Assembly: GCA_029264305.1 (NCBI GenBank)
Contig: JARICA010000008.1
Coordinates: 124,001-188,000, forward strand
Reading direction: 5' to 3'
Origin: Faecalimonas sp.
GTDB lineage: Bacteria; Bacillota; Clostridia; Lachnospirales; Lachnospiraceae
Length of the DNA: 64,000 bases
The translations under genes and the position numbers were made by a program. The notes below the pieces were generated by a model. The model was not told the origin of the DNA. It was given only the letters and a program-made list of their open reading frames with translations, and did not search any database. Below are positions 9,191 through 39,757 of the stretch, one piece after another; the stretch's first letter is position 1; each line of letters opens with the position of its first letter.

Positions 9191-9257
9191 AAAAAAGAAT
9201 GAAAAAACATCAAATTATTAATTGTTTTGCACAAAACATATAATAGGGAGTGGGAAA

Positions 9258-20600: not shown

Positions 20601-21469
20601 AAATAGCACCTGCAGTAGTATCATTGCAGGCGAGAAAACTTTTTGATGGTCAAGTTCCAGCAGAAGGAGAATTTACTTTTATATTAAAAGATGGAAACGG
20701 AAAAACGATAGATATCAAAAATAACGGAGTTGATGGAAAAATTTTATTTGATTCGATACCGATACAAGAAATAGGTGTGTATACTTATAATATTTCTGAA
20801 GAGCCTGGAAATTCTGAACTTATCTCTTATGATTCAACAGTCTACACAGCAGTGGTTCGTGTTACTAAGGATGAGCGTAGTCATAGCTTAAAGGCAGAAG
20901 TGACATACCAAAAAAATGAAGGAGAGGTTGTTTCTGAATTGGTTTTTGAAAATAAAACGATTATTCCTGAAACAACATCTGTAAAAGTAGAGAAAAAATG
21001 GAATTTGGATGATGGTGGTACAGCAACTTCTTATGTGACGGTAGCATTGTTGAAAGATGGTGTTAGATATGAAACGATTGAACTGAGCGAACAAAATGGT
21101 TGGACATACACTTGGGAAAATTTGAGCAAAGATAATGTATGGACGGTTGAAGAGGTAGATGTTCCAGAAGGATTCCAATCTTCTGTGGAGAAAAAGAATA
21201 AAACATTCGTTATTATTAATGATGATATTCCAGAAAAGCCAACGAAACCAGAAAAACCAGAGGAACTAGAAAAGCCAACAAAACCAGAAAAGGCAAATAC
21301 AAGTATGAAAAAGGAAGAACCAAGAAAAGAACGTGTATCAGTAACTCGTGTTTCTGTTCCGAAAACAAATGATATGAGCCATGTATATATGTGGATGGTG
21401 ATGAGTATGGTTTCTTTAAGTGGAGTCGGAATTGTTCTGTTGAGAATTAAGAAAAGAAAAAGAAATTAA
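17657..21469 (+). CDS. Thioester-domain surface adhesin with pilin-like repeats and PKTND sorting signal
   Basis: 1270 residues. A signal peptide (1-28) leads to a thioester-type domain: 'YVVFCFNEKK' (Cys86) and 'ATQMAVWLF' (Gln176) fit the Cys-Gln pair that forms an internal thioester in streptococcal and clostridial adhesins and can bond covalently to host protein amines. An isopeptide-linkage (FctA/SpaA-like) domain follows ('VTLDVQKKMDNGRKVTDKEFSF' ... 'LVITNK'), then about five DUF5979-like beta repeats of 105-140 residues ('ITGLPAGVGYTVTER', 'FVNTY'), another linkage domain, and a Cna-B-like domain ('SVKVEKKWNLDDGG'). A Pro/Glu/Lys wall-spanning stretch precedes VPKTND + hydrophobic helix + KKRKRN. 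It is probably anchored by the sortase encoded next. AAGGAGG supports the start. Confidence 0.85.
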   Translation: MKIRKVKFLSMLLVMVMIINMLPLSVFAKDVYDQNILGVGTQSENKYLDYMSRKNSKEHVLRFNKMSLTNYWMTKDDNQTKYVVFCFNEKKSAPNRTMYLKKFENGTENEFASLAADPIKGRLGSTYVRNSVMWATYLGYPGNKGVCNNQSFIDRAIDFYHIPDEYAEDAVRLATQMAVWLFTDYNTALDKFWSPIKADGSLGKGNWDRIKICDKYDTSMGDPITYLAADIAYQAYDNSGDAPKDMVLDLYIPKSEEYRDYKQNLLVTYYKEMKIERKPVKVTLDVQKKMDNGRKVTDKEFSFDFVGRDSKQDYNQKVYNNSNGKIMIPELTFTEPGKYQFYIQENKGNNPDVEYETSKFPITVTVEGVRDLKTRVSYGEQGKDQLVITNKVKLPQLGQLRIGKTVAGEGADSSKQFDFTVTLKDAQGNLVSGNFGGYTFSKGIANVKVSQNKPVTITDIPAGITYTVTENLLPENSDYTLTSSNNLTGTIRENNVAEAEFLNTTKPIQLYGKLKISKVVKGVPSGQKIDKFTFTVKLDNPKADVSKVTGATFKNGEATVSVAAGGSIIITGLPAGVGYTVTERTLDGYAVTSTGSTGYIVANQQKDVNFVNTYLNTGELTVQKVIEGSGASDADVFKFKLTLSNDEGLLTNKTCIVKFEDGSKVTKQIVNGELEFAIKGSGFATITDLPVGVHYQVAEKQADGSFTSTQDNIVENGYKLTSVTGNGQTTIAEKTMKVVFTNTKHLQKGYLQIFKAIEGSKSDKNDEFGFRITLKNKSGVPLSGTYLNQDGEKINFDSSGVAVVATKGGKGSILPSVRIKDLPVGTRYSVEEFTGVPGEYTAIAGNVVKDGYVLKKIIGKASGTIGVGKNSMTFLNRKADTSLTIQKKIAGDHWTDDIFTFSIRLLGNGARFNGVRDGVTFKNGYAEVNIQGAGTKMITGIPESNYTIAEKPVKGWNIPKQQSGTLTDGIPKTVVFENVKEKIAPAVVSLQARKLFDGQVPAEGEFTFILKDGNGKTIDIKNNGVDGKILFDSIPIQEIGVYTYNISEEPGNSELISYDSTVYTAVVRVTKDERSHSLKAEVTYQKNEGEVVSELVFENKTIIPETTSVKVEKKWNLDDGGTATSYVTVALLKDGVRYETIELSEQNGWTYTWENLSKDNVWTVEEVDVPEGFQSSVEKKNKTFVIINDDIPEKPTKPEKPEELEKPTKPEKANTSMKKEEPRKERVSVTRVSVPKTNDMSHVYMWMVMSMVSLSGVGIVLLRIKKRKRN

Positions 21470-21479
21470 ATAGATTTTG

Positions 21480-21520
21480 GGAATGTTACACTGAATAATT
21501 GGTGTAACATTCTCTTTTTA
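21480..21520 (+). terminator. Terminator after the adhesin gene
   Basis: GGAATGTTACAC / GTGTAACATTC stem, then TCTTTTTA. Confidence 0.8.
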
Positions 21521-21621
21521 TATAAACCTATTTAATAAAATTTGTAATCACACATTTTTAAAAATGCTATAAAAGATTTGGAGATATTTTATATTTGCTA
21601 TATTTTATTATATATAATTTG

Positions 21622-21630
21622 TGGTATAAT
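21622..21630 (+). promoter_or_regulatory. Extended -10 promoter of the sortase gene
   Basis: TGGTATAAT, 36 nt before the ATG. No clear -35. Confidence 0.45.
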
Positions 21631-21665
21631 AAGTTTCTAAGCAAAAACATAAAGAAGGAGTATAT

Positions 21666-22490
21666 ATGGACGCAAAAGAAAAACGAAAATTACACAGACA
21701 AAAAATGAAAGAAGAAGGGAAATATCAAAACAAGAAAAAGCAAGGCAAAAAGAAAAATTCTATTTTTAGTACGATTATTTTGATTGTGGCTATTTGTGTG
21801 TTTTGTTACTCCGCTTTTCAACTATATCAGATTTTTTCTTCTTATAAAAAAGGGAATGATGAATATGATAAAATCAAGAATTTAGCAATCACAGTAGAGC
21901 AAACTAAGAAGGGTGAAGAGAGATTCACAGTCGACTTTAATAAATTATGGGAGATTAACCCAGATACAGTAGCATGGATTCGCTTTGAGGAACCGTCAAG
22001 AATTAACTATCCTGTAGTACACAGCAAGGATAATCAAGAATATTTGAAAAAACTTTTTGGTACAGGAAAGAACACCTACGGCACATTATTTGTAGATAAA
22101 GATAATTCTGGAAATCTTCAAGATAGAAATACAATTATTTATGGACATCGTATGAAGAGTGGTTCGATGTTTGGACAATTAGAGAAATATATGGAAGAAT
22201 CATTCTATAAGGAACATCCATATTTCTATATGTATACTCCTGATGGAAAAGAATCAAAATATCAAGTTATTTCGGCAGCTGTAGTAAAAGATACTTCGAA
22301 AACATATACAAAAACTTTTAACAGTGATGAGGAATTTATGAATTATATAAATTATGTACGTTCTATTTCGAATTATCAAACAGATGCTGAAGTGACAAAG
22401 GATTCACATATTGTCAGCTTATCTACTTGTACAATTGATAGTAATGAAGATCGATTTGTATTACAGGCAGTAAAAATTAGTGAGAGATAG
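21666..22490 (+). CDS. srtB: Class B sortase
   Basis: 274 residues, membrane-anchored with a long Lys-rich cytoplasmic start and one TM segment (about 35-55), i.e. type II orientation. The sortase barrel shows 'TVAWIRFEEPSRINYPVVHSKDNQEYL' (class B signature), catalytic His in 'IIYGHRMKSGSMF' (about 160), Cys in 'VSLSTCTID' and Arg in 'NEDRFVLQAVK'. It cleaves a sorting signal and joins the protein to peptidoglycan or to another subunit. The adhesin immediately upstream ends VPKTND, close to the NPQTN/NPKTN motif of class B enzymes, and is the best substrate candidate. AAGGAG precedes the ATG. Confidence 0.92.
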   Translation: MDAKEKRKLHRQKMKEEGKYQNKKKQGKKKNSIFSTIILIVAICVFCYSAFQLYQIFSSYKKGNDEYDKIKNLAITVEQTKKGEERFTVDFNKLWEINPDTVAWIRFEEPSRINYPVVHSKDNQEYLKKLFGTGKNTYGTLFVDKDNSGNLQDRNTIIYGHRMKSGSMFGQLEKYMEESFYKEHPYFYMYTPDGKESKYQVISAAVVKDTSKTYTKTFNSDEEFMNYINYVRSISNYQTDAEVTKDSHIVSLSTCTIDSNEDRFVLQAVKISER

Positions 22491-24096: not shown

Positions 24097-27000
24097 ATGA
24101 ATAGGTTTACAAAAGGAACAGCACGTTTCGGAGCAACTTTGCTCACAGCCGTTTTGACAATGTCTTGCTTATCACCATTAGCAACAACGAATGCGAATGT
24201 AGAAGTAAGAACACAGTCTCAAACACAGATGAGTTCGGATAAAGAAGTTGTGTACATGAACACATTGAATAATGTGACAGAACGTACACAAAATTTTGAC
24301 GCGAACTGGAAATTTTATTTAGGTGATGCGGGAAATGCTCAAACAAGTAATTTTGATGATTCCAAGTGGAGAAATATTTCTTTGCCACATGATTACAGTA
24401 TTGAGCAAGCATATTCTCAGCAAATGGAAGCAGAAAGTGGGTATCTTCCTGGAGGAACAGGTTGGTATCGTAAGCATTTCACTGTAGGAAATGAGTTAAA
24501 AGGAAAAGAGATTCGTCTTAATTTTGATGGCGTTTACATGAATTCTACAGTATATATTAATGGTGAAGAATTAGGAACACATCCATATGGATATACGCCA
24601 TTCTCATTTGATTTGACAAAACACATCAAATTCGGTGAGGAAAATGTTATTTCGGTTAAGGTTGATCATAAAACACCTTCAAGTCGTTGGTATTCAGGAA
24701 GTGGTATTTACAGAAGTGTAAACTTAACAGTGACAGATGCTGTAAATATTGCTTTAAATGGAACAAAGGTAGAAACACCTGAACTTGCAACAAATCAGGC
24801 ACAGGTAAAAACAAAAGTAAGAACAACTGTAGAAAATGATGGTACAGAAGCAAAAGATGTTATTTTGACACATAAAGTGTTTGAAAAGAAAAATCCAAAT
24901 ACTGTTATTGGAACAACAACGACATCAAAAGAAACAATTCAGGCGAATGGCAAAAAGGATATTAATGCAGAATTTACTGTAAATAATCCAAACTTATGGG
25001 ATACAGAACACCCAAATCTTTACACAGTTCGTACAGAAGTAAAAGTAGGAGATAAGGTTGTTGATACATATGACACAGAGTATGGTTTCCGTTATACAGA
25101 ATTTAATAAAGACAGAGGATATTATTTAAATGGAAAACCTGTAAAATTAAAAGGTGTTTGTATGCATCATGATCAAGGAGCATTAGGTGCTGTAGCAAAT
25201 CGTCGTGCAATTGAACGTCAAGTTGAAATTTTACAGGAAATGGGTTGTAACTCTATTCGTGTAACACATAACCCGGCTGCACAAAACTTGATTGATGTTT
25301 GCAATGAAAAAGGTATTTTAGTTGTAGAAGAAATTTTTGACGGTTGGCATCATGCAAAAAATGGAAATACCGAAGACTTTGCAAAATACTTTGATAAAAA
25401 AATCGGAGAAAACAATACAGTGTTAGGCGCAACACCAAATATGACATGGGCGGAATTTTCTTTAAAATCTACTTTGAGAAGAGATCAGAATGCACCATCT
25501 GTTATTATGTGGTCTTTGGGAAATGAAATCCAAGAAGGCGCTGGATATAGTGATTATGATGAAAAAGTACCTTACTTAATTAAATGGGCAAAAGATGTAG
25601 ATACAACTAAAGAATTAACTATTGGGAGTAATCAAGTAAAAAACGAACCTACTAATACTGGAGATACAGAACATTCTAAAGTTGCTGATAAGATTACAGA
25701 AGCTGGTGGAAGTTCAGGAACAAACTATAGTAAAAATACAGGATATGAAGATTTAAGAAAAAAACATCCTAACTGGAAGATCTATGGTTCAGAAACGGCA
25801 TCTTCTATTAACAGTCGTGGTGTATATCATACAAAAGGAAGAGATGATTCTACACAAGAATTAACATCTTATGATAAATCAACAGTAGGTTGGGGAGCAT
25901 TGGCTAATGATGCATGGTATGATGTAATTACACGTGATTTTGTTGCAGGAGAGTATGTATGGACAGGATTTGACTATATTGGTGAACCTACTCCATGGAA
26001 TGAAACAAAAGCAGGTCCAAAGGGACATTGGCCATCACCAAAGAACTCGTTCTTCGGTATTATTGATACAGCAGGAATGCCAAAAGATTCTTATTATTTA
26101 TATCAGAGTCAATGGAATGATAAAGTAAACACACTTCATGTATTGCCTACATGGAATAAAGATGGAATTATTTTAAATAATGGAAATGCAGAAGTGGCTG
26201 TATATTCAGATGCTCCAAAAGTAGAACTGTGGTTGACACCAAAGGGAAGCACGATAGCGAAAAAAGTTGGAGAAACACAGACAATAACAAAGAAAAATAC
26301 ACCAGTAGGACATAGTTATTATGAAAATGAAAATACAAAGAAACTTTATCGTACCTGGAATGTGAAGTATGAAGAAGGCACATTGGAAGCTAGAGCCTTT
26401 AATGAAAAAGGAGAGCGTATCACAAAAACAGAAGGACGTTCTTCTGTAACAACAGCGGGACCGAAAGCAAAATTGCAAGTAAAAGCAGATCGGAAAGAAA
26501 TCAAAGCAAACGGAAAAGACCTATCTTATTTGCAGATTGATGTAACAGATGCAAATGGAAATATTGTACCGAATGCAGATGATAAAGTAAAAGTTGAAGT
26601 GACTGGAAATGGAACTTTAGTAGGGTTAGATAATGGATGGCAAACAGATCATGATTCTTATAAAGGAACAGAGCGCAGAGTTTATAACGGCTCAGGAATT
26701 GCTATTATACAGTCTACAAAGAACGCTGGTGATATTACGGTTAAAGTCTCAGCTAATGGATTAGGAGAACAGACAATTACTTTAAAAACAAAAGCAGATG
26801 CAACTAGTGGACAGCAGAAAGTTGTTGTAGATAGTTTCTTTATGACAAAGAACTATTATGTTAAAGTTGGAAACAAACCAAGTTTACCAGAAAAAATCGA
26901 AGTAAGATATTCGGATGGGAAGAAAGAACAGAAAGCAGTTCAATGGGGACAAATTACAAATGAACAGATAAATAAAGCAGGGGCTTTTGCATTGGATGGA

Positions 27001-29655
27001 ACTGTAGATGGTAAATATAAAGTATCTGTAAGAGTCAATATGATTGATGAAGTGGGTGGCTTATTAAATTATTCTACAGCTGTTAAAGTTGGAACGAAAC
27101 CAATATTGCCAGAAGCAAGAACAGCATATTTAAGTAATGGAGAAGTGTTGGATGTTGCGTTCCCGGTGAAGTGGGAAGAAAAAACTGCACAAGACTATAA
27201 TAAAGTAGGTGTAGTCATAGTGAACGGTACAGCAAATGTGTTAGGGAAAGATGTAAAAGTAACGGCAAATGTTCGTGTGGCGAATGAAGATGTAGCAATT
27301 GGTGATAGTGTTTCAGGACAGGCAAGTATTTTAAAACAAGATATTCCAGAGAATATGCAATCAGATACATTAGCAGCAATTAAGGATGGAAAACTAGGGA
27401 AAGATGCAAACGCTGAAGGTGGAACAAATAAAAGTGTTTGGACGAACTATAAGTATTCACAAGCAGGAAACAATAAGGCTACAATTACTATGGGATATGA
27501 TACACAACAGGTTATTGGGGAAATAGTTATTCACTTTTTTGAAGATAGTTATAGTGCAAGGTTCCCAGCAGCTAATACAACAAAGATTTCGGTTTCGGAA
27601 ACAGCAGATGGTCCTTGGACGACTGTAACAGCAAAAGAACAGATTGGTGAAGCTAGAGATGGTATTAAAGCGTATACTTATCAATTAAATGCACCTGTTT
27701 CCGCTACATATATTAAATTTGAAGTAACGAATAAGGATGTTAATTTAGGAGATCATAAACCTTGTACTGGTATTACAGAAATTGAATTAAAGAAAGCAAC
27801 AACTTCCTTTAAGACAAACACAACTGCTGAATTAAGCAAATTAGCAGTAAACAATGTAGAGTTGACAGCAGAACAACTTGCATCTGGAAAATATACAACA
27901 TCAGCACTTGTTGCTACAGTTGTAGCAGAAGGAAAAGACAATGCAGCAGTAACTGTTCTTCCAAAGAACAAAGAAAATCAAGTAAAAATTATTATTGAAT
28001 CAGAAGATCATAAAACGACAAAAACATTTACAATCTTCTTAAATGATAAAGATCCTGATGTTTTCTATCCAAATAAAGACATTACAGCTTCTTCACCATC
28101 AGTATTAACAGGTCCTACAAATAATGAAGGGAAAGTTGAATATGTGCTAGATGGAGATGTAAATACACATTGGCATACAAATTGGAAAACAAATGAGGCA
28201 GATAATGTAGATCACCGTGAAATTACATTGACATTACAAGAAGCAACTACAATTAATGCGATGAATTATCATCCACGTGTATATAATGGTGGAAATGGTC
28301 GTGTAACAAAATATAAAATTTTGTATAGTGTAGATGGAACTACATTTAAAGACACAGATGTATGTGCGGAAGGAACTATTTCTAAGGATAAAGCAGATTG
28401 GACATTACTTGAATTTACAAAACCTGTAAAAGCAAAAGCATTCAAATTAATTGGTGTCGAAACATATGCAGATTCAGGAAATAACAAGCACATGGCAGTT
28501 GCAGAATTACGTTTAAGAATGCAGAGAGAAACAACAGATATCTCAAATGCTGAAAATAAAGTAGTGCTTGACCCTATCGCAAAACAAAAAGTAGATGTGG
28601 TAGATGAAAATCATCCAGTAGAACCACAAGTAACTGTAAAACAGAATGGAACAGCATTAACATATGGAATTGACTACAAGGTAAGTTATGCAAATAATAC
28701 AGCAGTGGGAACAGCGAAAGCAATTGTAACAGGTATTGGAAAATACTCAGGAACATTAGAAACAACTTTTGAAATTGAAAAGAATCCAGTTTCATTAAAG
28801 AGTATTGCAGTAAAAACTGCTCCAAAACAGGATTACCATGTAGGAGATAAATTCAATCCGGAAGGATTGGTATTAACTGTATTCTACAGTGATGCTACAT
28901 CATCAGAAGTTGCTTATACAGCAGAAACAAAAGGTAAATTTACATTCAATCCTTCTTTAGAAAAAGCTTTAGCTACTACAGATAAAGTTGTAACGGTAAC
29001 TTATGAAGGAAAAACAACAGAAATTCCAGTAAATGTTACAGAAGGAACAACATCTTCTGTAAGAAAAGATTTAGAGGAAAGAGTGAAATTTGCACAATCA
29101 ATTACTCCAAACGGATATACAGCAGATAGTTATAAAGTGTTTAAAGATGCGTTGAAAGCAGCAGAGGCAATGTTAGCAAATACAAATGCTACAGATGCAC
29201 AGTTACAGAAAGCATTAGATAACTTGAATGCAGGAATTAATGGATTGAAAGAAGAGTCGGTAAAACCAAATCCGAATCCAAATCCAGACAATAATGGAGA
29301 ACGCGATGAACTTCGTGCAAAATTACAGAAATTCTATGATGAGTGCTTAACATACTACAAAGAGGGTAACTATTCTAAAGAAAATTGGAATCGTTATCAA
29401 GATGCAATGACACAGGCAAAAGAAGCTTTAGAAGATAAAGATGCAACAAAGAAAGAATTAAAAGATGCACTTTCAAACTTAATTGATGCAACAAAACATT
29501 TGAACTCTGAAGGAAAAGGAGAAGGAAATGTTCCTACTCCACCAACTAATGTAAAAACAGGAGATCAAGCACCAGTTAAAATGATTGTTGGATTGATGGT
29601 AATTGCAGTTGTAGCAATTGTAGGTGTTATCATTTACAAAAAGAAAAGAAAATAA
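24097..29655 (+). CDS. Wall-anchored GH2 beta-galactosidase, multidomain
   Basis: 1852 residues. After a signal peptide (about 1-34) come the GH2 sugar-binding domain ('FDANWKFYLGDAGNAQ', 'PGGTGWYRKHF'), the Ig-like domain, and the TIM barrel with 'LKGVCMHHDQGALGA', acid/base Glu in 'VIMWSLGNEIQEG' (about 475) and the probable nucleophile Glu in 'IYGSETASS' (about 563). DUF4982-like and GH2 C-terminal domains follow, two Ig-like bacterial domains, a galactose-binding-like domain, a CBM32-type F5/8C domain (about 1327-1475, 'NTHWHTNW'), and two three-helix FIVAR-like modules (about 1650-1805). The tail is VKTGDQAP + hydrophobic + KKKRK. It should remove terminal beta-galactose from host glycans at the cell surface; linkage choice is unknown. 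Confidence 0.92.
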   Translation: MNRFTKGTARFGATLLTAVLTMSCLSPLATTNANVEVRTQSQTQMSSDKEVVYMNTLNNVTERTQNFDANWKFYLGDAGNAQTSNFDDSKWRNISLPHDYSIEQAYSQQMEAESGYLPGGTGWYRKHFTVGNELKGKEIRLNFDGVYMNSTVYINGEELGTHPYGYTPFSFDLTKHIKFGEENVISVKVDHKTPSSRWYSGSGIYRSVNLTVTDAVNIALNGTKVETPELATNQAQVKTKVRTTVENDGTEAKDVILTHKVFEKKNPNTVIGTTTTSKETIQANGKKDINAEFTVNNPNLWDTEHPNLYTVRTEVKVGDKVVDTYDTEYGFRYTEFNKDRGYYLNGKPVKLKGVCMHHDQGALGAVANRRAIERQVEILQEMGCNSIRVTHNPAAQNLIDVCNEKGILVVEEIFDGWHHAKNGNTEDFAKYFDKKIGENNTVLGATPNMTWAEFSLKSTLRRDQNAPSVIMWSLGNEIQEGAGYSDYDEKVPYLIKWAKDVDTTKELTIGSNQVKNEPTNTGDTEHSKVADKITEAGGSSGTNYSKNTGYEDLRKKHPNWKIYGSETASSINSRGVYHTKGRDDSTQELTSYDKSTVGWGALANDAWYDVITRDFVAGEYVWTGFDYIGEPTPWNETKAGPKGHWPSPKNSFFGIIDTAGMPKDSYYLYQSQWNDKVNTLHVLPTWNKDGIILNNGNAEVAVYSDAPKVELWLTPKGSTIAKKVGETQTITKKNTPVGHSYYENENTKKLYRTWNVKYEEGTLEARAFNEKGERITKTEGRSSVTTAGPKAKLQVKADRKEIKANGKDLSYLQIDVTDANGNIVPNADDKVKVEVTGNGTLVGLDNGWQTDHDSYKGTERRVYNGSGIAIIQSTKNAGDITVKVSANGLGEQTITLKTKADATSGQQKVVVDSFFMTKNYYVKVGNKPSLPEKIEVRYSDGKKEQKAVQWGQITNEQINKAGAFALDGTVDGKYKVSVRVNMIDEVGGLLNYSTAVKVGTKPILPEARTAYLSNGEVLDVAFPVKWEEKTAQDYNKVGVVIVNGTANVLGKDVKVTANVRVANEDVAIGDSVSGQASILKQDIPENMQSDTLAAIKDGKLGKDANAEGGTNKSVWTNYKYSQAGNNKATITMGYDTQQVIGEIVIHFFEDSYSARFPAANTTKISVSETADGPWTTVTAKEQIGEARDGIKAYTYQLNAPVSATYIKFEVTNKDVNLGDHKPCTGITEIELKKATTSFKTNTTAELSKLAVNNVELTAEQLASGKYTTSALVATVVAEGKDNAAVTVLPKNKENQVKIIIESEDHKTTKTFTIFLNDKDPDVFYPNKDITASSPSVLTGPTNNEGKVEYVLDGDVNTHWHTNWKTNEADNVDHREITLTLQEATTINAMNYHPRVYNGGNGRVTKYKILYSVDGTTFKDTDVCAEGTISKDKADWTLLEFTKPVKAKAFKLIGVETYADSGNNKHMAVAELRLRMQRETTDISNAENKVVLDPIAKQKVDVVDENHPVEPQVTVKQNGTALTYGIDYKVSYANNTAVGTAKAIVTGIGKYSGTLETTFEIEKNPVSLKSIAVKTAPKQDYHVGDKFNPEGLVLTVFYSDATSSEVAYTAETKGKFTFNPSLEKALATTDKVVTVTYEGKTTEIPVNVTEGTTSSVRKDLEERVKFAQSITPNGYTADSYKVFKDALKAAEAMLANTNATDAQLQKALDNLNAGINGLKEESVKPNPNPNPDNNGERDELRAKLQKFYDECLTYYKEGNYSKENWNRYQDAMTQAKEALEDKDATKKELKDALSNLIDATKHLNSEGKGEGNVPTPPTNVKTGDQAPVKMIVGLMVIAVVAIVGVIIYKKKRK

Positions 29656-29797: not shown

Positions 29798-31525
29798 ATG
29801 AAAGTATTCAAAAAGTTACTTGCAGTAACACTTGCTCTAGGAATTACTGTGGGAGCAGGGGTTGCAACTGGTAAGACAACAGAAGTAAAGGCAGCAGAAC
29901 AAGCAAACTTAAAAAGCGTTTTCTCAATTGACGCAGGAAGAAAATATTTTTCTTTAGAGCAATTAAAGACAATTGTAGATAAAGCGTATAAAAATGGTTA
30001 TACTGATGTTCAAGTTTTATTAGGAAATGACGGACTTCGTTTATTATTAAATGATATGTCTTTAAAAGTAAATGGAACAACATATAGCAGTGATGCTGTT
30101 AAAAATGCAATTTTAGCAGGTAATAAATCATACTATGATGATCCAAACGGAAATGTGCTTACACAATCTGAAATGGATAGTCTACTTGCATATGCAAAAG
30201 AAAGAGGAATGAATATTATTCCAGTAATCAACAGCCCTGGACATATGGATGCAATCTTAGTTGCTATGGAAAAATTAGGAATTGAAAACCCACAGTTTGA
30301 AGGTTCTGTACGTACAGTAGACCTTAAAAATGAAAAAGCAATTGCATTTACAAAAGCATTAGTAGCAAAATATGTAAATTATTTTTCAAAATCATGTGAA
30401 ATTTTCAACTTTGGTACAGATGAATATGCAAATGATAAAAATACTGGTGGTTGGGCAAACTTACAGAGAACAGGTTTATATAGAGAATTAGTTAAATATG
30501 TAAATGATTTAGCTAAAATTGTAAAAGATGCAAAAATGACACCAATGTGTTTCAATGATGGTATTTACTATAAGAGTACAGAGAAGTTTGGAACATTTGA
30601 CAAAGATATTATTATTTCATACTGGACATCAGGATGGGGGGGATATGATGTAGCAAAACCTAAGTATTTTGCAGAAAAAGGTCATAAAATCTTAAATACA
30701 AATGACGGTTGGTACTGGGTATTAGGAAACTACAGCAAAGAAGAACATAAAAATGGTTATATCTATGATAGTGCTGTGAAAAACATTAAAGAAAAAAGCT
30801 TTACAGCAGTAACAGGTGCAGCTGAAGGAGATCAACTTTCTCTTATCGGAAGTATGCAGTGTGTATGGTCTGATTATCCATCAGAAAAATATGAAGAAGA
30901 TAAAGTACTTGGTTTAATGGACTTATTCTCTGAAAAACACAGTAACTATTTAGTACGTCCAGCAGATTATACAAAAGTAGATGCAGCTATTGCTAACATT
31001 CCTTCTGATTTAAGTGTGTATACAGAAGAAACTGTAAATGCACTTAACGAAGCAAAAAATGCTGTTGTAAGAAACAAAAGAGTAACAGAACAGAATGTTG
31101 TTGATGGGTATGCAAATGCAATCAATACAGCAATTGATGCTTTAGTTTACAAAACAGCAGATTATACAAAAGTAGATGCAGCTATTGCAAAAGCAAATGC
31201 ATTAAACAAAGCAGATTATAAAGATTTTTCAAAAGTAGAAAAAGCAATTAAAGCAGTAAAACGTGATTTAGATATTACAAAACAGGCTGAAGTAGATGCT
31301 ATGGCAAAAGCTATTGAAGATGCTATTGCGACATTAGAGAAAAAAGCACCTACAGTTAACGGAAACACAAACGGAACAACTGGTGGAAATACAACAACTA
31401 GTGGAACATCTGGAAGTGTTAAGACAGGAGATACAACAAATATGATGTTATGGGTAATGTTATTGGTTGTGTCAGCTGGAGCAGCTGGAGTTTTCTACGT
31501 AAAACAACGTAAAGTAAACAGATAG
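29798..31525 (+). CDS. Wall-anchored GH20 beta-N-acetylhexosaminidase (StrH-like)
   Basis: 575 residues. The signal peptide (1-34) is followed by a GH20 barrel (about 40-385) that closely resembles the catalytic repeats of pneumococcal StrH: 'FSIDAGRKYFSLEQLKTIVDKA', 'VLLGNDGLRLLLNDM', 'PVINSPGHMDAILVAMEKLG', the catalytic Asp-Glu pair in 'NFGTDEYAND' (about 207), 'MCFNDGIYY' and 'NTNDGWYWVLG'. It should remove non-reducing beta-GlcNAc from N- or O-glycans by the substrate-assisted mechanism. Two FIVAR-like helical repeats (about 388-520) begin with the same 34 nt. The tail VKTGDTTN + hydrophobic + KQRKVNR is a sorting signal. It has its own promoter and terminator. Unlike StrH it has one catalytic domain. 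Confidence 0.9.
   Translation: MKVFKKLLAVTLALGITVGAGVATGKTTEVKAAEQANLKSVFSIDAGRKYFSLEQLKTIVDKAYKNGYTDVQVLLGNDGLRLLLNDMSLKVNGTTYSSDAVKNAILAGNKSYYDDPNGNVLTQSEMDSLLAYAKERGMNIIPVINSPGHMDAILVAMEKLGIENPQFEGSVRTVDLKNEKAIAFTKALVAKYVNYFSKSCEIFNFGTDEYANDKNTGGWANLQRTGLYRELVKYVNDLAKIVKDAKMTPMCFNDGIYYKSTEKFGTFDKDIIISYWTSGWGGYDVAKPKYFAEKGHKILNTNDGWYWVLGNYSKEEHKNGYIYDSAVKNIKEKSFTAVTGAAEGDQLSLIGSMQCVWSDYPSEKYEEDKVLGLMDLFSEKHSNYLVRPADYTKVDAAIANIPSDLSVYTEETVNALNEAKNAVVRNKRVTEQNVVDGYANAINTAIDALVYKTADYTKVDAAIAKANALNKADYKDFSKVEKAIKAVKRDLDITKQAEVDAMAKAIEDAIATLEKKAPTVNGNTNGTTGGNTTTSGTSGSVKTGDTTNMMLWVMLLVVSAGAAGVFYVKQRKVNR
30960..30993 (+). repeat. 34-bp direct repeat, copy 1
   Basis: CAGCAGATTATACAAAAGTA... is identical to 31155-31188, 195 bp (65 codons) away. 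It opens each FIVAR-like module of the GH20 protein. Confidence 0.85.
31155..31188 (+). repeat. 34-bp direct repeat, copy 2
   Basis: Second copy; same reading frame as copy 1, so loss or gain of a module by recombination would keep the frame. Confidence 0.85.
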
Positions 31526-31675: not shown

Positions 31676-34600
31676 ATGAAAAAGAAACAAGTAGTAAGTG
31701 GACTACTGTCTGCTGCTATGGTCATGAATGTAGCTTTAGTAGATATGGGACCAGTGCAGGCGGCAACACAGACGAATTTGGCGTTAAACAGACCTGTTAC
31801 AGCAACGAGTTATGAAAGGCCAAATCAAGAGCCGGAAAAGACATCTCCTCAGAAAGCAGTTGATGGAAATTTTGATACAAGATGGGGAACTGCAGAAAAT
31901 AAAGCTGTAAATGAAAGCATCGAAGTGACATTGGATGGAGTTCAGACTGTAAAACAGATCAATGTACATTTTGAAAGAAATGACGCTGAACAGAATATTA
32001 AAAAATTTAAAGTCGAAATTAAAAATGAGAAGAATCAGTATGAAGAAGTATATAAGAATAGTGGGGAAAGAGCTAAAGGTTTAGAAATTATTAAATTGAA
32101 AACTGCGAAAAAAGCTAAAACTGTTAAAGTAACAATTTTAGATGCTGACGGTGGCCCATTGAAGTGGTTAAATGTTGGAATTCGAGAAATTGAAGTGTTT
32201 GAAAATGAACAAAAGGACATTGTGACTACACAAAATGTAAATCATGTAAAATCAGCAGAAATGGTTGCATCTAGTGTGGAAAAGGATAGCAATGGAAAAC
32301 CACATCCATCATTGGTAGAAACAAATGCAAATGATGGGAAAGAGAATACTCGTTGGGCTAGTGATTATACGGAAGTAAACAAACAGAGCTTAACAGCGAA
32401 ATTTTCAAATCCTACTAGTGTAAAACATGTACGTGTTCGTTTCCATAAGAGAGATGTAAATCCTGGAGATTCTAATGTAGAACAATTTAAGTTGAAATAT
32501 AAAGATATTAATGGAGAAGAAAAGGAAGCAAAACAGGTTTCGGTTTCAAAGTTAGGTGATAATAGAGGATATGCAACTGAGGTAGATATTGTTTTAGAGA
32601 ATCCAATCGTTGCACAAGAATTGAAAATTAGTGATTTTGTTGCAAATGCAAAAGATTATAATAATATCAGTGTTGTAGAATTTGAAGCATACTCTAACCA
32701 ACAGTCTCAAAAACCTTCAGGAAATACATTGGATAGTGTTATTGCAAGCTTAAAAGGTGGAAATGTAGAGAAAGATGTAACACAGTTTGCATTACCACAA
32801 GTGCCAGAAGGATTTAAAATTGAACTTAATGGTGCTGACTTTGAACAGATTATTGCTAAAAATGGAAAAGTACAACATCCATTAACAGATAAATTAGTGA
32901 AAGTTTCTTTTAAAGTAACTGACAATAAAGGAAACTCAAAAGTTACAGGGGATTATGATTACACTGTAAAAGGACTACATGAAAAAGTAAATGGAAAGAA
33001 TGCAAAACCAGTTGTTATTCCAGAAATTCAAGAATGGTATTCTAATTCTGATAAAAAAATTAGCACAAACAGTTTGACAAAGGTAGTTTACAACGATGAA
33101 AAATTAAAACCAATTGTAGACGAATTTGTAAAAGACTACAAAGACTTTTCTGGAAAAACATTAACAGTTTCAAAAGGAACAGAAGAAAAAAATGCATTTA
33201 ACTTTAAGTTGCAAGCTCCAGATGAACTTCTTGGAGAAGAAGGCTACAAAATGGACATTAAAGAAGATCGTATCAATGTAGATTCTGTTAGCATAACAGG
33301 AAATATGTATGGTATGCAGACTATTTTGCAGATGTACAAAGAAAATGCAAACGAATATAAAGTAGGACAGATGAGAGATTATCCTCGTTATCAAACACGT
33401 GGATTATTGCTTGACGTAGCAAGAAAACCAGTTTCTTTGGAAATGATGAAAGAAATCACAAGAACAATGCGTTATTACAAAATGAATGACTTCCAAGCTC
33501 ATTTATCAGATAACTATATTTTCTTGGAACAGTATGGTAATGGAGCAAAAGAAAACGAAGCGTTTAAAGCATATGAAGCATTCCGTTTGGAATCAGGTTT
33601 GAAAAATGCAAAAGGAGAATCTCCAACAGCAAAAGACTATTCTATTTCAAAGGAACAATTCAAAAAATTCATTCAAGAAGAACGTGCGTTAGGAATGAAA
33701 GTTGTTCCTGAAATTGATGTACCTGCACATGCTACATCATTTACAAAAGTATGGCCAGAATTAATGGTGAAAAATAAGGTTTCTTCGCTAAAAGGAGATA
33801 GACCGTTAGTTGACCACTTTGATTTAACAAAACCTGAAGCAACAAAGAAGATTGAACAAATTTTTGATGATTATACAAAAGGAAGTAATCCAACTTTTGA
33901 TGATAAAACAACAGTACACATTGGTGCCGACGAATTCTTATATAGTTATAAACACTATAGAAAATTTGTAAATGAATTTGTGCCGTATGTGAAAAAGACA
34001 AACCCAGTTCGTATGTGGGGTGGATTAAGTTGGATTAAAGACAATCCAATAACTCCGATTGAGAAAGATGCGATCGATAATGTTGAGATGAATTTATGGT
34101 CAAAGGATTGGGCAGACGGTAAGGAAATGTATGATATGGGCTATAAATTAATCAATACAATTGATAGTTATGGCTATATGGTACCAAACGGAACGTTTAA
34201 TCAAGGTGCTTATGGGGATTTGCTTAATGTAAATAGTGTGTTTAATGGTTTTGAACCGAATAAAGTTTTTATGAAGAATGGACAATCATACAATGTTCCT
34301 TCAGGGGACGATCAGATGCTCGGAGCAGCATTTGCCATTTGGAATGATAATATCGATAAATCTGCTTCAGGTTTAACAGAATCTGATTTATATTGGAGAT
34401 TCTTTAATGCATTACCATTCTATGCAGAAAAAACATGGGCAGCTACAGGAAAAGAAAAAGAAACTGCGGATAAATTAGCAAAACTTGCACAGGACAAAGG
34501 AACAGGTCCAAATACAAACCCATATTATCAAGAAGATAAAAAAGGTGATAATTACGCAGAATATAAATTCGAAAACAACCTAAATGATACTTCTGCAAAC

Positions 34601-36268
34601 AAACGTGATTTAAAAAATGGTAAAAATGCAGAAGTACAAAATGGAAAATTACATTTAAAAGATAAAGAAAGTTATGTAACATCTCCTGTGGAACAGTTAG
34701 GAAATGGAAATGCTCTTTCTTTTGATATTAAATTAAACAAACCTTCAAAACCAGGAGATATTCTTTTTGAAGAAACAGCACCATACGGAACTCATGATAT
34801 TCGTGTAATGGACAATGGAAAACTTGGATTTACAAGAGAATTATATGATTACTACTTTGATTATGAACTTCCAGTAGGAAAACAAGTGAAACTTCAGATT
34901 GTAGTTACACAACAAAAAGCAAAATTATATGTAGACGGACAGTTTGTAAGCGATGCAAAAGGAAGATTCTTCCATAATAACATGGTGAAGAAAGATAATA
35001 TTTCAAATGCAACATTTGCTCTTCCATTAGAAAGAATTGGTTCGAAAACAGATTCTATTGAAGCTGAAATTGATAATGTTTTAGTTACAACAGCACCTGT
35101 AGAAAAAGATGAATATAACAAAGCAGCATGGACAGGAAAAACAAATTCAGAAACAAAAAATGGTGGAGAAAAAGAGGGCGAACTTACAAAAGCATTTGAT
35201 AAAAAATCAAATACACACTGGCATTCAAATTGGAAAGGTGCTACAGATAAAGTTGAAGATGTAAATGGTAAAAAAGGAAATCATGATAAAATTTGGGCTG
35301 AAATTGATTTCCACAAAGGATATACAATTAACCAGTTCTCATTCACACCAAGAACAGATTCGAAGAGTGGTTATGTAACAAGAGCTTCATTATATGTGAA
35401 GAATTCTGCAGATGGTCAGTGGAAAGAAGTTGCAAAAGATCAAAAATTTGCAAATGATGGTTCAAAGAAAACATTTAATTTCCCAACACAAGAAGTGTTT
35501 GGAGTGAAATTTGAAGCAACACAGTCAAGTGACGGATGGGTAACTGTATCAGAATTTGACATGGCAAATGCACCTCAAAGAATGTGTACTGTATTTGTAC
35601 AAGCTGAAGAAGGTGGTAAAGTAGAAGGAAATAAAGAAGTTGCTTTAGGAGAAAATGCAACTGTAACAGCAACAGCAAATGCAGGTTACAGATTTGCAGG
35701 ATGGTATCGTTCAAATGGAGAAAAAGTTTCTGATGAAGCAAAATACACATTTAAGGTAACAGATAATACTGCATTAACTGCTAAATTTGAAAAAACAGAT
35801 GCACCTGTTGATCCAGAAACAAAATATACAGTAGCAGTACAGACAGCAGATGAAACAATGGGAACAGTTTCAGGTGCAGGAGAATTCAACAAAGGAGATA
35901 ATGCAACTGTAACAGCAAAAGCAAAAGAAGGATATAAGTTTGTTAACTGGACGGTAGATGGAGTTGAAGTTAGTACAGAAGCAACATATACATTTGAAGT
36001 AACAAAAAATGTAAGTTTGATTGCTAACTTTGAAAAAGTAGGAGAAGAAAAACCGGAAAAACCAGAAAATCCAGATAATAATAAACCGGTAAACCCAGAT
36101 AACAAACCAGGAACACCAGATAACAAACCGGCAAAACCAAATAATAAACCGGCAACATCTACTAATAAACCTGTTAAAACAGGTGATGAAGCACCAGTTC
36201 TTCCATTAGCAGCAACAATGGCAGGATTAGGAGCAGCAATTGCACTTTTATTCAAAAAAAGAAAATAA
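31676..36268 (+). CDS. Wall-anchored GH20 family hexosaminidase / lacto-N-biosidase-like enzyme, multidomain
   Basis: 1530 residues. Signal peptide (1-29), two F5/8C (CBM32-like) domains (about 33-180 and 190-340), a GH20 N-terminal domain (about 440-560), and the barrel opening 'RYQTRGLLLDVARKPVSLEMM' with the catalytic Asp-Glu in 'VHIGADEFLYSY' (about 751) and 'LGAAFAIWND'. A LamG-like lectin domain follows (about 960-1140), a third F5/8C domain ('NTHWHSNWKG'), two InlB-B-type repeats ('ENATVTATANAGYRFAGWY', 'DNATVTAKAKEGYKFVNW'), a Pro/Asn/Lys stretch and VKTGDEAP + hydrophobic + KKRK. GH20 covers beta-hexosaminidases and lacto-N-biosidases; the size and lectin modules resemble bifidobacterial LnbB, but substrate is not proven. 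It shares a transcript with the next gene 15 nt away. Confidence 0.88.
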   Translation: MKKKQVVSGLLSAAMVMNVALVDMGPVQAATQTNLALNRPVTATSYERPNQEPEKTSPQKAVDGNFDTRWGTAENKAVNESIEVTLDGVQTVKQINVHFERNDAEQNIKKFKVEIKNEKNQYEEVYKNSGERAKGLEIIKLKTAKKAKTVKVTILDADGGPLKWLNVGIREIEVFENEQKDIVTTQNVNHVKSAEMVASSVEKDSNGKPHPSLVETNANDGKENTRWASDYTEVNKQSLTAKFSNPTSVKHVRVRFHKRDVNPGDSNVEQFKLKYKDINGEEKEAKQVSVSKLGDNRGYATEVDIVLENPIVAQELKISDFVANAKDYNNISVVEFEAYSNQQSQKPSGNTLDSVIASLKGGNVEKDVTQFALPQVPEGFKIELNGADFEQIIAKNGKVQHPLTDKLVKVSFKVTDNKGNSKVTGDYDYTVKGLHEKVNGKNAKPVVIPEIQEWYSNSDKKISTNSLTKVVYNDEKLKPIVDEFVKDYKDFSGKTLTVSKGTEEKNAFNFKLQAPDELLGEEGYKMDIKEDRINVDSVSITGNMYGMQTILQMYKENANEYKVGQMRDYPRYQTRGLLLDVARKPVSLEMMKEITRTMRYYKMNDFQAHLSDNYIFLEQYGNGAKENEAFKAYEAFRLESGLKNAKGESPTAKDYSISKEQFKKFIQEERALGMKVVPEIDVPAHATSFTKVWPELMVKNKVSSLKGDRPLVDHFDLTKPEATKKIEQIFDDYTKGSNPTFDDKTTVHIGADEFLYSYKHYRKFVNEFVPYVKKTNPVRMWGGLSWIKDNPITPIEKDAIDNVEMNLWSKDWADGKEMYDMGYKLINTIDSYGYMVPNGTFNQGAYGDLLNVNSVFNGFEPNKVFMKNGQSYNVPSGDDQMLGAAFAIWNDNIDKSASGLTESDLYWRFFNALPFYAEKTWAATGKEKETADKLAKLAQDKGTGPNTNPYYQEDKKGDNYAEYKFENNLNDTSANKRDLKNGKNAEVQNGKLHLKDKESYVTSPVEQLGNGNALSFDIKLNKPSKPGDILFEETAPYGTHDIRVMDNGKLGFTRELYDYYFDYELPVGKQVKLQIVVTQQKAKLYVDGQFVSDAKGRFFHNNMVKKDNISNATFALPLERIGSKTDSIEAEIDNVLVTTAPVEKDEYNKAAWTGKTNSETKNGGEKEGELTKAFDKKSNTHWHSNWKGATDKVEDVNGKKGNHDKIWAEIDFHKGYTINQFSFTPRTDSKSGYVTRASLYVKNSADGQWKEVAKDQKFANDGSKKTFNFPTQEVFGVKFEATQSSDGWVTVSEFDMANAPQRMCTVFVQAEEGGKVEGNKEVALGENATVTATANAGYRFAGWYRSNGEKVSDEAKYTFKVTDNTALTAKFEKTDAPVDPETKYTVAVQTADETMGTVSGAGEFNKGDNATVTAKAKEGYKFVNWTVDGVEVSTEATYTFEVTKNVSLIANFEKVGEEKPEKPENPDNNKPVNPDNKPGTPDNKPAKPNNKPATSTNKPVKTGDEAPVLPLAATMAGLGAAIALLFKKRK

Positions 36269-36283: not shown

Positions 36284-39200
36284 ATGAAGAATCGAGTAAT
36301 TAAAAAATTATTATGCTCGGTACTTGCGTTTGGGATGATTGTCCCAAACGCTTTTCCTGTTTATGCCGAAGAAGCGGCAAAAACAGATTTAACAGCCGAG
36401 TTAAAAGATTATTGGAATTTTGATTCCTTGACAAGTAATCAAGGAGAAAAAACAACTGCAACAGTGCATGGAAATGCTAACATTGTAGAAAGTGGAGATA
36501 AAACATTTGGGAAAGTACTTCGATTTGGTGGGGGTGCAGACAATTATTTAAGATTAGACAACTACATCAACACAGGAAGTGGTTCTACATCATTTTCTAT
36601 GTGGTATCGTTACGATACTACTATTACAGGTGATGATGCAAATAAGGCTACCGTTTTATTGCAACATGAAGGAGAAGGTCGTTCTTTACTAACTTTACAG
36701 GGAGATGGAAAATACAATACATTTATTAATAAACAGAATGTAACTTCTAAAAATGTTGTGGAAAAAGGACAGTGGCAACATATTGTTGTAACCTTTGATC
36801 AGAGTGCAAAAAAAGTTAAATATTATATTAACGGAGAAAAAGATAGTGAACAAGCACTTGGAAATGAAGTGGTGAACAAAGTTTTACCATTGCGGTTAGG
36901 TGCACATAAAACACCGGGGACTACTGATCCTCATGCGATGCGTGGTGATGTAGATGAATTCCGTGTATATAATAAAGCGTTGACAGATGCGGAAGCAAAA
37001 GCTTTATATGATGAAAAAGCTCCAAAAGTAGATGATGTGAAATTGACAGTAGATTTGAACAAGGTAAATCAGACAATCGAACCAGAAACTATTTTTGGTA
37101 TTAATCATCGTTATGCTTTTAATGGTTATGGAACATTTGATTCTGAAAAAATGAAAATCAAAGATGATTTCAAATCGTTATATGAACAAGCAGGATTTGG
37201 TTCTATTCGTTATCCAGGAGGAACGATTTCAAACTTGTTTAACTGGAAGACAACTTTAGGAAGCAAAGAAAACCGTAAAAAACAAATTCATGGTTTTTAT
37301 AATAATCAGAATCAAAATGGTATTGAACCAAACTTTGGTATTAAAGAAATAGGCGATTTTGCAGATGAAGTGAATTCGGAAATTGTTTATGTATATAGTT
37401 TGGGACGCGGTAATGCTATGGATGCTGCAGATTTAGTAGAATATCTGAATGCAAAAGTTGGCACAAATCCAAATGGCGGAATTGATTGGGCACAAGTTCG
37501 TGCAAAAAATGGACATAAAGACCCTTACAATGTACGTTATTTTGAAATCGGAAATGAAATGCAGCAGGCTTATGGAAAAGATGCTGACGGTACAACATCA
37601 CAAGGATATTGGACACAATATGTAGAAGGTGGAGCAGAAAAAGCATACACAGAAGGTGGAGTTGCAAAATTTGTACAAAGATATGCTGTTGATGAAGAAA
37701 ACTGGAATAAAGTTGCATCAAGAACAGATGGAAAACCAAATTTAGTTAGATATTTACGATACGCAAATGTAAACCCTGGAAAGATGGAAAACGGGAAAAT
37801 TGTTGCTGATCCTGAATTTAAGGCAGTAAATGATGGAGTACAGGTTTATGTCGGAGTAGATGGAAAATTAACAGAATGGAAAGTGGTAAACTCTTTTGAA
37901 AATTCAAAGGAAAATGATACACATTGTGTTGTAGATTATAGTACAGGTGCTATCCATTTTGGTGATGGAAAACATGGTAAGATACCAGAAGCTAATCAAA
38001 ACGTATATGCAACTTATAGTGTAAAGAGAGAAGGTTTCATTGACGTATCAAAAGCAATTAAAAATACGACAAACAAAATCAATGAAATTGAAGGAACAAA
38101 ACATAAAGCAAACGTATATACAAGTTATGAATCAAAAGGATTCATTCAGCATATGAATGATTTACATGCCAATGATTGGTATGACGGAATGACAATTCAT
38201 CCATATTCAGGTACAGTACAAGGAAATACTGCGGAAGCATTTTATGATGACGCGATGAAAAAAGCAGAAACAAAAGGTGTGGATCATGTAAAAGATTATG
38301 TAAAAATGTTACCTGAAGGAAAAGTACCTGTCATTAGTGAGTATGGTATTTTCAGAAATACACAACCACAAGTGCGTTCTCAAACACATGCGGTATATAT
38401 TGCAAAAGTATTAATGGAATATGTGAAATTGGGAAGCCCATATATTCAGAAACATTGTTTGGCTGACTGGTATAGTTCTGGTGGAGATTCACTTGGACCA
38501 ACTCAGCAGGCAGTTATCCAAGTTGTTCCACAGACAAATGCAAATACAGGAACAGGAGAGGGAGAATTTAAGTTTTTCTCAACTCCATCAGCTCGTGTGT
38601 TTGAAATGTTAAATGGGGGATTTGGAGAAAAAGTTGTAGATGCACAGTTTGATGTTGTGCCAACAATGAGCAATGGGGTAAAAATGTTATCAGCTCTTGC
38701 AAGTAAAGATAATAGTGGAAATATTTATGTAGCGATGGTGAATGTTGATCGCAAAAATGACCGCAACGTTGTATTAAACATACCAAATTATAATTTAGCA
38801 GGACATAAAATTGAATTACAAACATTGAGTTCAAAAACAATTACAGATGAGAACACATTGGCGAACCCAGAAACTGTAAAAGTGAATAGAACAAATATGG
38901 TGGCTACAGAAACTCAAAGTATTACTGTACCAAAACACTCATTTGTTGTGGCAAAAATTTGTAGTAATGTAAATAAAACAGCTCTTCAGAAAAAAGTTGA
39001 TGAAATTAATACATTAAATAAAGCAAACTATACTAATTTTGCTTCTGTAGAAACAGTATTAAATAAAGCAAAAACAGTTTTAGAGAATTCCTCTGCTACA
39101 CAAGATGAAGTAGATAGAATGCTTAAAGAACTAACAGACGCTCAAGCAAAACTTACTTTGAAAAAAGCAAACTATGCAAAAGTGGATGAAGCAATAAAGA

Positions 39201-39757
39201 AAGCAAATGCATTAAACAAAGATGATTTTGTTGATTTTAGCGAAGTAGAGAAAGCTTTAAATGCCGTTGTACGTGATTTAGATATTACAAAACAGGCGGA
39301 AGTAGATGGAATGGCTAAAGCCATTGAAGAAGCTATTAAAGGTTTAACAAATAAGCCAGCACCTAAACCAGAAAAACCTTCTAAGGAAGCGTTGGAAAAT
39401 GCTTTGATGGAAGCGAAAAAGTTAAATGGAAAAGATTATAAGGAAGATGGTTGGAAGGTATTTGTAAATGCATTAGAAGTTGCACAGTCAGTATATGAAA
39501 ATGAAGATGCAACAGAACAAGAAATTGCAGATGCAGTAAAACAATTAAAAGATGCTCAAAATAAACTTGTAAAAGTAGAAGTAGAAAAGCCAGAAGAGAC
39601 ACAGAAACCACAAAAACCAGATAAGAAACCAAATAATGAGCAGCATGACAAAACAGATACAACAAGTAAGCCAGTGAAAACAGGAGATACAGCACCGATA
39701 CTTCCATTGATGATTATGGGACTTGGAGCAGTCTTAGTTGTATTAAAAAAACACTAA
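36284..39757 (+). CDS. Wall-anchored LamG + clan GH-A glycoside hydrolase of uncertain family
   Basis: 1157 residues. A signal peptide (about 1-29) leads to a LamG/concanavalin-like domain (about 40-245). A TIM barrel (about 250-800) has 'IFGINHRYAFNGYG', 'GFGSIRYPGGTISNLFNW', acid/base Glu in 'RYFEIGNEMQQ' (about 424) and nucleophile Glu in 'PVISEYGIF' (about 685). That arrangement is clan GH-A, nearest in feel to GH51/GH39-type arabinofuranosidases, with a C-terminal beta domain ('IYVAMVNVDRKNDRNVVLN'). Three FIVAR-like helical modules (about 900-1100) and VKTGDTAP + hydrophobic + KKH close the protein. An unusual insertion with 'VQVYVGVDGKLTEW' lies between the two catalytic Glu. As operon partner of a GH20 enzyme it probably acts on the same host glycan. 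Confidence 0.78.
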   Translation: MKNRVIKKLLCSVLAFGMIVPNAFPVYAEEAAKTDLTAELKDYWNFDSLTSNQGEKTTATVHGNANIVESGDKTFGKVLRFGGGADNYLRLDNYINTGSGSTSFSMWYRYDTTITGDDANKATVLLQHEGEGRSLLTLQGDGKYNTFINKQNVTSKNVVEKGQWQHIVVTFDQSAKKVKYYINGEKDSEQALGNEVVNKVLPLRLGAHKTPGTTDPHAMRGDVDEFRVYNKALTDAEAKALYDEKAPKVDDVKLTVDLNKVNQTIEPETIFGINHRYAFNGYGTFDSEKMKIKDDFKSLYEQAGFGSIRYPGGTISNLFNWKTTLGSKENRKKQIHGFYNNQNQNGIEPNFGIKEIGDFADEVNSEIVYVYSLGRGNAMDAADLVEYLNAKVGTNPNGGIDWAQVRAKNGHKDPYNVRYFEIGNEMQQAYGKDADGTTSQGYWTQYVEGGAEKAYTEGGVAKFVQRYAVDEENWNKVASRTDGKPNLVRYLRYANVNPGKMENGKIVADPEFKAVNDGVQVYVGVDGKLTEWKVVNSFENSKENDTHCVVDYSTGAIHFGDGKHGKIPEANQNVYATYSVKREGFIDVSKAIKNTTNKINEIEGTKHKANVYTSYESKGFIQHMNDLHANDWYDGMTIHPYSGTVQGNTAEAFYDDAMKKAETKGVDHVKDYVKMLPEGKVPVISEYGIFRNTQPQVRSQTHAVYIAKVLMEYVKLGSPYIQKHCLADWYSSGGDSLGPTQQAVIQVVPQTNANTGTGEGEFKFFSTPSARVFEMLNGGFGEKVVDAQFDVVPTMSNGVKMLSALASKDNSGNIYVAMVNVDRKNDRNVVLNIPNYNLAGHKIELQTLSSKTITDENTLANPETVKVNRTNMVATETQSITVPKHSFVVAKICSNVNKTALQKKVDEINTLNKANYTNFASVETVLNKAKTVLENSSATQDEVDRMLKELTDAQAKLTLKKANYAKVDEAIKKANALNKDDFVDFSEVEKALNAVVRDLDITKQAEVDGMAKAIEEAIKGLTNKPAPKPEKPSKEALENALMEAKKLNGKDYKEDGWKVFVNALEVAQSVYENEDATEQEIADAVKQLKDAQNKLVKVEVEKPEETQKPQKPDKKPNNEQHDKTDTTSKPVKTGDTAPILPLMIMGLGAVLVVLKKH

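Follow-up and report, generated by a model that had tools for sequence, protein, structure and literature searches.

The gene analysed here lies in a 64,000-nucleotide stretch of DNA from Faecalimonas sp., hereafter the window. It forms a single open reading frame on the forward strand (36284–39757), encoding 1157 amino acids. These coordinates agree exactly with those of the initial annotation, and all motifs quoted there were located in the product. From the N terminus, the protein comprises a predicted signal peptide, a LamG jelly-roll module, a GH51-like barrel with a C-terminal beta domain, FIVAR repeats and a sortase-like tail (Table 1). The LamG head had been named before and was confirmed with Pfam; it is present in 36 of 38 scanned relatives, and the C-terminal beta domain (PF06964) was matched in 31 of the 38. 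The LamG module matches assorted ConA-like jelly rolls in both sequence and fold, and hence we make no substrate call from it. The sortase-type tail suggests that the enzyme is displayed on the cell surface. A sortase gene is present in the same window (21666–22490).

The gene is preceded, after a gap of 15 bp, by a GH20 gene. The initial annotation had paired the enzyme with a GH20; this adjoining gene is indeed there, but it is not the single partner, as Pfam identified two GH20 genes and a GH2 (Table 1). Ahead of this glycosidase cluster lies a pilus-like locus (17657–22490), in which the sortase gene comes after that of a large surface adhesin carrying thioester, DUF7601, FctA and Cna_B domains. 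A 1406-residue protein with a BNR_2 sialidase-like domain (9222–13442) may belong to the same host-glycan set.

Table 1 Features of the gene, its product and the neighbouring glycosidase genes in the window
Feature	Position	Strand	Basis or remark
Whole gene	36284..39757	+	Predicted clan GH-A glycosidase anchored at the surface; family sister to GH51
Predicted signal peptide, aa 1–28	36284..36367	+	By eye from sequence: basic start, hydrophobic core, VYA site
LamG jelly-roll module, aa 35–245 (Pfam core aa 84–237)	36386..37018	+	Pfam E 3.4e-21; AlphaFold pLDDT 96.7
GH51-like catalytic barrel and C-terminal beta domain, aa 252–892	37037..38959	+	AlphaFold, Foldseek and hhalign (values in text)
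N274, invariant Asn at the GH51 invariant-Glu position (FxEH motif)	37103..37105	+	Asn in 38/38 relatives, Glu in 15/15 GH51
E425, predicted acid/base	37556..37558	+	Alignment to GH51 GNE motif
Extra segment particular to the family, between the catalytic Glu residues, about aa 431–605	37574..38098	+	Residue spacing (in text); limits approximate
Phage-baseplate-like core of the insertion, aa 514–580	37823..38023	+	TIGR02243 E 7e-8; phrog_1369 E 2.8e-6; PDB 9gtp E 0.0024 (profile)
E686, predicted catalytic nucleophile	38339..38341	+	Alignment to GH51 DEW motif
GH51-type C-terminal beta domain, aa 763–886	38570..38941	+	Pfam PF06964 23.3 bits, under cut-off 27
FIVAR repeat, aa 1034–1095, best of two Pfam matches	39383..39568	+	Pfam E 4.2e-10
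VKTGD-type sortase-like tail, aa 1131–1157	39674..39754	+	By eye from sequence (VKTGD...KKH)
Upstream GH20 with F5/8-type domains	31676..36268	+	Pfam
Second GH20	29798..31525	+	Pfam
GH2, beta-galactosidase-like	24097..29655	+	GalB model 669 bits, under 900 cut-off

A clan GH-A family, sister to GH51, with an altered active site

The alignment, profile and domain scan took in 38 relatives. Searched against a structure database, the profile matched GH51 structures (E about 5e-31). The AlphaFold model of residues 252–892 has a mean pLDDT of 94.2, and GH51 is the top Foldseek family for it, with an E-value of 2.5e-33, a TM-score of 0.77 by target length and 15% identity. Alignment with hhalign to 15 GH51 sequences covered 465 columns at 99.9% probability, indicating full-length homology to the GH51 catalytic and C-terminal domains. 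The features of clan GH-A are all found in the model and the GH51 alignment: a barrel in which the acid/base Glu follows strand 4 (NE motif) and the nucleophile Glu follows strand 7. The protein had been described as GH51/GH39-like, with structure prediction suggested as a check. Profile search, Foldseek and hhalign bear out the GH51-like, clan GH-A part of that description. GH39 structures were absent from the profile matches and from the 50 listed Foldseek hits, and a GH39 origin was dropped. The second Foldseek family was instead GH79 (E-value 1.5e-18, for example the beta-glucuronidase 5g0m), a weaker fold match than GH51 and one with no sequence-profile counterpart.

The tree sets the new sequences apart from GH51 on a long branch, with support of 100/100. 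As a set, the curated GH51 models (Pfam ASD1_dom and Alpha-L-AF_C, NCBIfam ArfA) do not accept the enzyme: ASD1_dom, a catalytic fragment, scores 24.3 bits against a cut-off of 22.2 over a short stretch only, while the strict ArfA model gives 76 bits against 625. The initial annotation had noted a poor fit to an arabinofuranosidase, and the ArfA score and the loss of a GH51-invariant Glu agree with it. We do not file the enzyme as GH51, since it has lost two residues that are invariant there and falls short of the strict model. Strong placement in a characterised GH51 or GH39 subfamily did not emerge from the Pfam, NCBIfam and PDB comparisons; we use 'new family' only in the sense that none of these three resources places the enzyme, CAZy/dbCAN placement being outside the comparison.

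The acid/base motif RYFEIGNEMQQ (residues 418–428) includes E425, and the nucleophile motif PVISEYGIF (residues 682–690) includes E686; a further motif, SIRYPGGTISNLFNW, spans residues 307–321. Since E425, E686 and their flanking motifs are invariant in the 38 aligned relatives, which come from both Firmicutes and Actinobacteria, the motifs represent more than chance. H639 and Y641, the GH51 His/Tyr pair, and R309 are common to the family and GH51. By contrast, N274 occupies the position of a Glu that we take to contact arabinofuranose in GH51, and the residue preceding the nucleophile, S685, is Ser in 38/38 relatives versus Asp in 15/15 GH51 sequences (DE motif). The retaining machinery thus appears to be preserved and the sugar site changed, given that the catalytic Glu, His, Tyr and Arg residues are kept while N274 and S685 replace GH51-invariant residues. 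The enzyme probably works in a GH51-type manner.

The catalytic Glu residues are 261 residues apart, compared with 119 for the matching residues in a GH51 relative. The insertion between them that the initial annotation described is therefore real, but measures ~140 rather than ~110 residues. It contains the motif VQVYVGVDGKLTEW (residues 519–532), and over it the profile of the 38 relatives matches a phage baseplate J protein (Table 1). Its core resembles phage baseplate J-like proteins, except that here it is one small domain within an enzyme barrel; no further phage genes were recognised in the surroundings of the gene. A divergent Bacilli relative that lacks LamG has the same insertion motif, which makes the insertion look like an old feature of the family. 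We speculate that the baseplate-like domain shapes the leaving-group side of the active site.

The enzyme thus shares with GH51 alpha-L-arabinofuranosidases (Thermotoga 3ug3, 3s2c) the barrel, the C-terminal beta domain, the two catalytic Glu residues, the strand 6 His and Tyr and the RxPGG motif. It differs in its low identity and the two substitutions, and adds the insertion, the LamG head, the surface anchor and host-glycan partners.

Distribution and host-glycan gene company of the relatives

Full-length relatives occur in 4 of 397 sampled genomes of the host's taxonomic family, its own included; the other three share 42–55% identity with the enzyme, and the remaining matches in this sample are partial and GH51-like. 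One other species of the same genus has a close relative (74% identity). Scanning about 85,000 species yielded 43 loci, an undercount because exact short motifs were required. The holders, mostly host-associated bacteria, include Pseudoflavonifractor, Mediterraneibacter, Roseburia, Thomasclavelia, Allobaculum mucilyticum, Collinsella, Olsenella, Bifidobacterium jacchi, three Streptococcus species, an Aerococcaceae bacterium and Paraliobacillus. Plasmid records gave solely partial GH51-like matches. A search for Bacilli relatives, in which an S-layer form like keratanase II was sought, found one divergent protein of 672 residues (L083, 1324–3342) with a GH51-like barrel and the baseplate-like insertion. 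No host-glycan neighbours were found for it, and with it the family extends past the host-associated clade. Near a Pseudoflavonifractor relative lies a 1795-residue open reading frame (L027, 16544–21928) with zero Pfam matches.

The family keeps host-glycan gene company. In S. zalophi, the GH-A domain is fused to GH95 in one protein, beside a GH20–GH29 protein; in S. hyovaginalis it is fused to GH84, and in Paraliobacillus to GH16, beside a GH123. GH84 lies near relatives in six further loci and GH20 in three (L034, L052 and L067). In Thomasclavelia, the genes between the relative and a GH84 encode an antiterminator and a PTS specific for N-acetylglucosamine. Overall, a host-glycan partner occurs in 13 of 43 family loci versus 1 of 20 true GH51 control loci (p = 0.02), a soft test because some query sequences were drawn from family loci and certain loci are closely related to one another. 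Apart from one GH43, no arabinan-type partners were found at the family loci. Together with the GH20 and GH2 genes in the window, these fusions and partners uphold the host-glycan context first proposed.

In S. pseudopneumoniae, the relative is the last gene of an operon (L039, 991–11947), after an anaerobic sulfatase maturase, a DeoR-type regulator, a mannose-family PTS, a sulfatase without signal peptide, a formylglycine-generating-enzyme (FGE)-like protein and a TauE-type exporter. The maturase and the FGE-like protein are two possible sulfatase activators. Searching all family loci with this sulfatase returned L039 only (1/43). Sulfatase maturases are present in 8 of 14 holder genomes versus 8 of 30, a weak enrichment (p = 0.054).

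On another contig of the enzyme's own genome (C16), an ABC transporter, a kinase and lacto-N-biose phosphorylase have beside them a sulfatase that lacks a signal peptide, together with its maturase. This cluster is of the lacto-N-biose/galacto-N-biose type (L102, 887–16619), with an epimerase, the kinase, a nucleotidyltransferase, the ABC transporter and the phosphorylase; its sulfatase and anaerobic maturase raise the possibility that sulfated disaccharides are imported. The two sulfatases, of this cluster and of L039, share 26% identity, which does not support orthology.

Proposed function and alternatives

Our preferred reading, which we consider likely, is that the enzyme represents an uncharacterised retaining clan GH-A family, sister to GH51, that is surface-anchored and acts on mucin-type host glycans. 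The GH51-sister part follows from the GH51-like fold, the kept catalytic residues, the separate branch and the invariant sugar-site changes. A host-glycan role is indicated by the GH84, GH95 and GH16 fusions, the GH123, GH20 and GH29 neighbours, the GlcNAc PTS, and the GH2 and two GH20 genes in the window, as well as by the PTS, cytoplasmic-type sulfatase, maturases and TauE exporter ahead of the S. pseudopneumoniae relative. Counting against it are the single sulfatase link, the weak maturase enrichment, the soft context control and the LamG-less Bacilli relative. Both the mucin-type substrate and the retaining mechanism are put forward as probable, the latter from the aligned residues.

By alignment, E425 would protonate the leaving group and E686 would form the glycosyl-enzyme intermediate. 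On mucin-type host glycans, the enzyme may act in concert with fucosidases, beta-galactosidase and hexosaminidases of GH20 and GH84: it would take off a capped, possibly sulfated, beta-galactose-type unit blocking a beta-GlcNAc, which GH20 or GH84 could then remove. A capped or sulfated beta-galactoside as the bond cut is a tentative lead.

It is also possible, though not probable, that the enzyme is endo-acting, of an endo-beta-galactosidase or biosidase type, releasing Gal–HexNAc disaccharides or longer products for uptake by a lacto-N-biose/galacto-N-biose transporter. Disaccharides can be imported by PTS and ABC systems, and both the phosphorylase cluster of the own genome, with its sulfatase and maturase, and the Paraliobacillus fusion to GH16 would suit such an activity. 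However, that cluster lies on a different contig, and a GH20 of the window could yield the disaccharide instead. A narrower version of our preferred reading is doubtful: a new clan GH-A family of sulfoglycosidases would free sulfated galactose or sulfated Gal–HexNAc from mucin O-glycans, to be taken up and desulfated in the cytoplasm, and the baseplate-like domain would shape the substrate site.

A GH79-kind uronidase acting on glycosaminoglycans or glucuronic-acid caps is unlikely. The Foldseek ranking and the S. pseudopneumoniae sulfatase operon would fit it, but neither a glycosaminoglycan lyase nor GH88 was seen in the neighbourhoods annotated, a subset of all neighbours, and the GH84, GH95 and GH29 partners indicate O-glycans. 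We rejected a true GH51 alpha-L-arabinofuranosidase on dietary plant glycans as quite improbable: although the closest solved fold and sequence are GH51, the active site, the strict-model score and the gene partners all mismatch.

Slightly less probable again is a GH111-kind keratan-sulfate endo-beta-N-acetylglucosaminidase (keratanase II), whose sulfated GlcNAc/Gal substrate would be compatible with the sulfatase operon. Keratanase II accepts sugar oxazolines, that is, it uses substrate-assisted catalysis, unlike the GH51-type Glu nucleophile. The report of GH111 from gut mucin degraders (PMC12997984) would suit this assignment, but the same study records GH51 and GH111 side by side as distinct families within single genomes, which argues against it. 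A catalytically dead, lectin-like relative, suggested by the departures from GH51 at invariant positions, is highly improbable given that both catalytic Glu, the preceding Asn, the His and the Tyr are invariant in the 38 relatives.

The mucinolysome of Limousia has a GH51-annotated enzyme among its mucin glycoside hydrolases (PMC12997984), a likeness to our family at the level of annotation; dockerins are absent from the 38 relatives scanned. No mention of the family was found in the literature searched, which dealt with GH51 among mucin degraders and with Allobaculum and R. torques. A GH51 label in mucin degraders may mask a different activity. The family also reuses a phage-baseplate-like domain within an enzyme barrel. 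Sulfated and capped O-glycans are a hard part of mucus breakdown, and many of the Firmicutes enzymes for them are still to be identified. A rare, mostly host-associated family with GH84, GH95 and GH16 fusions and one sulfatase–PTS operon offers a short list of testable substrates.
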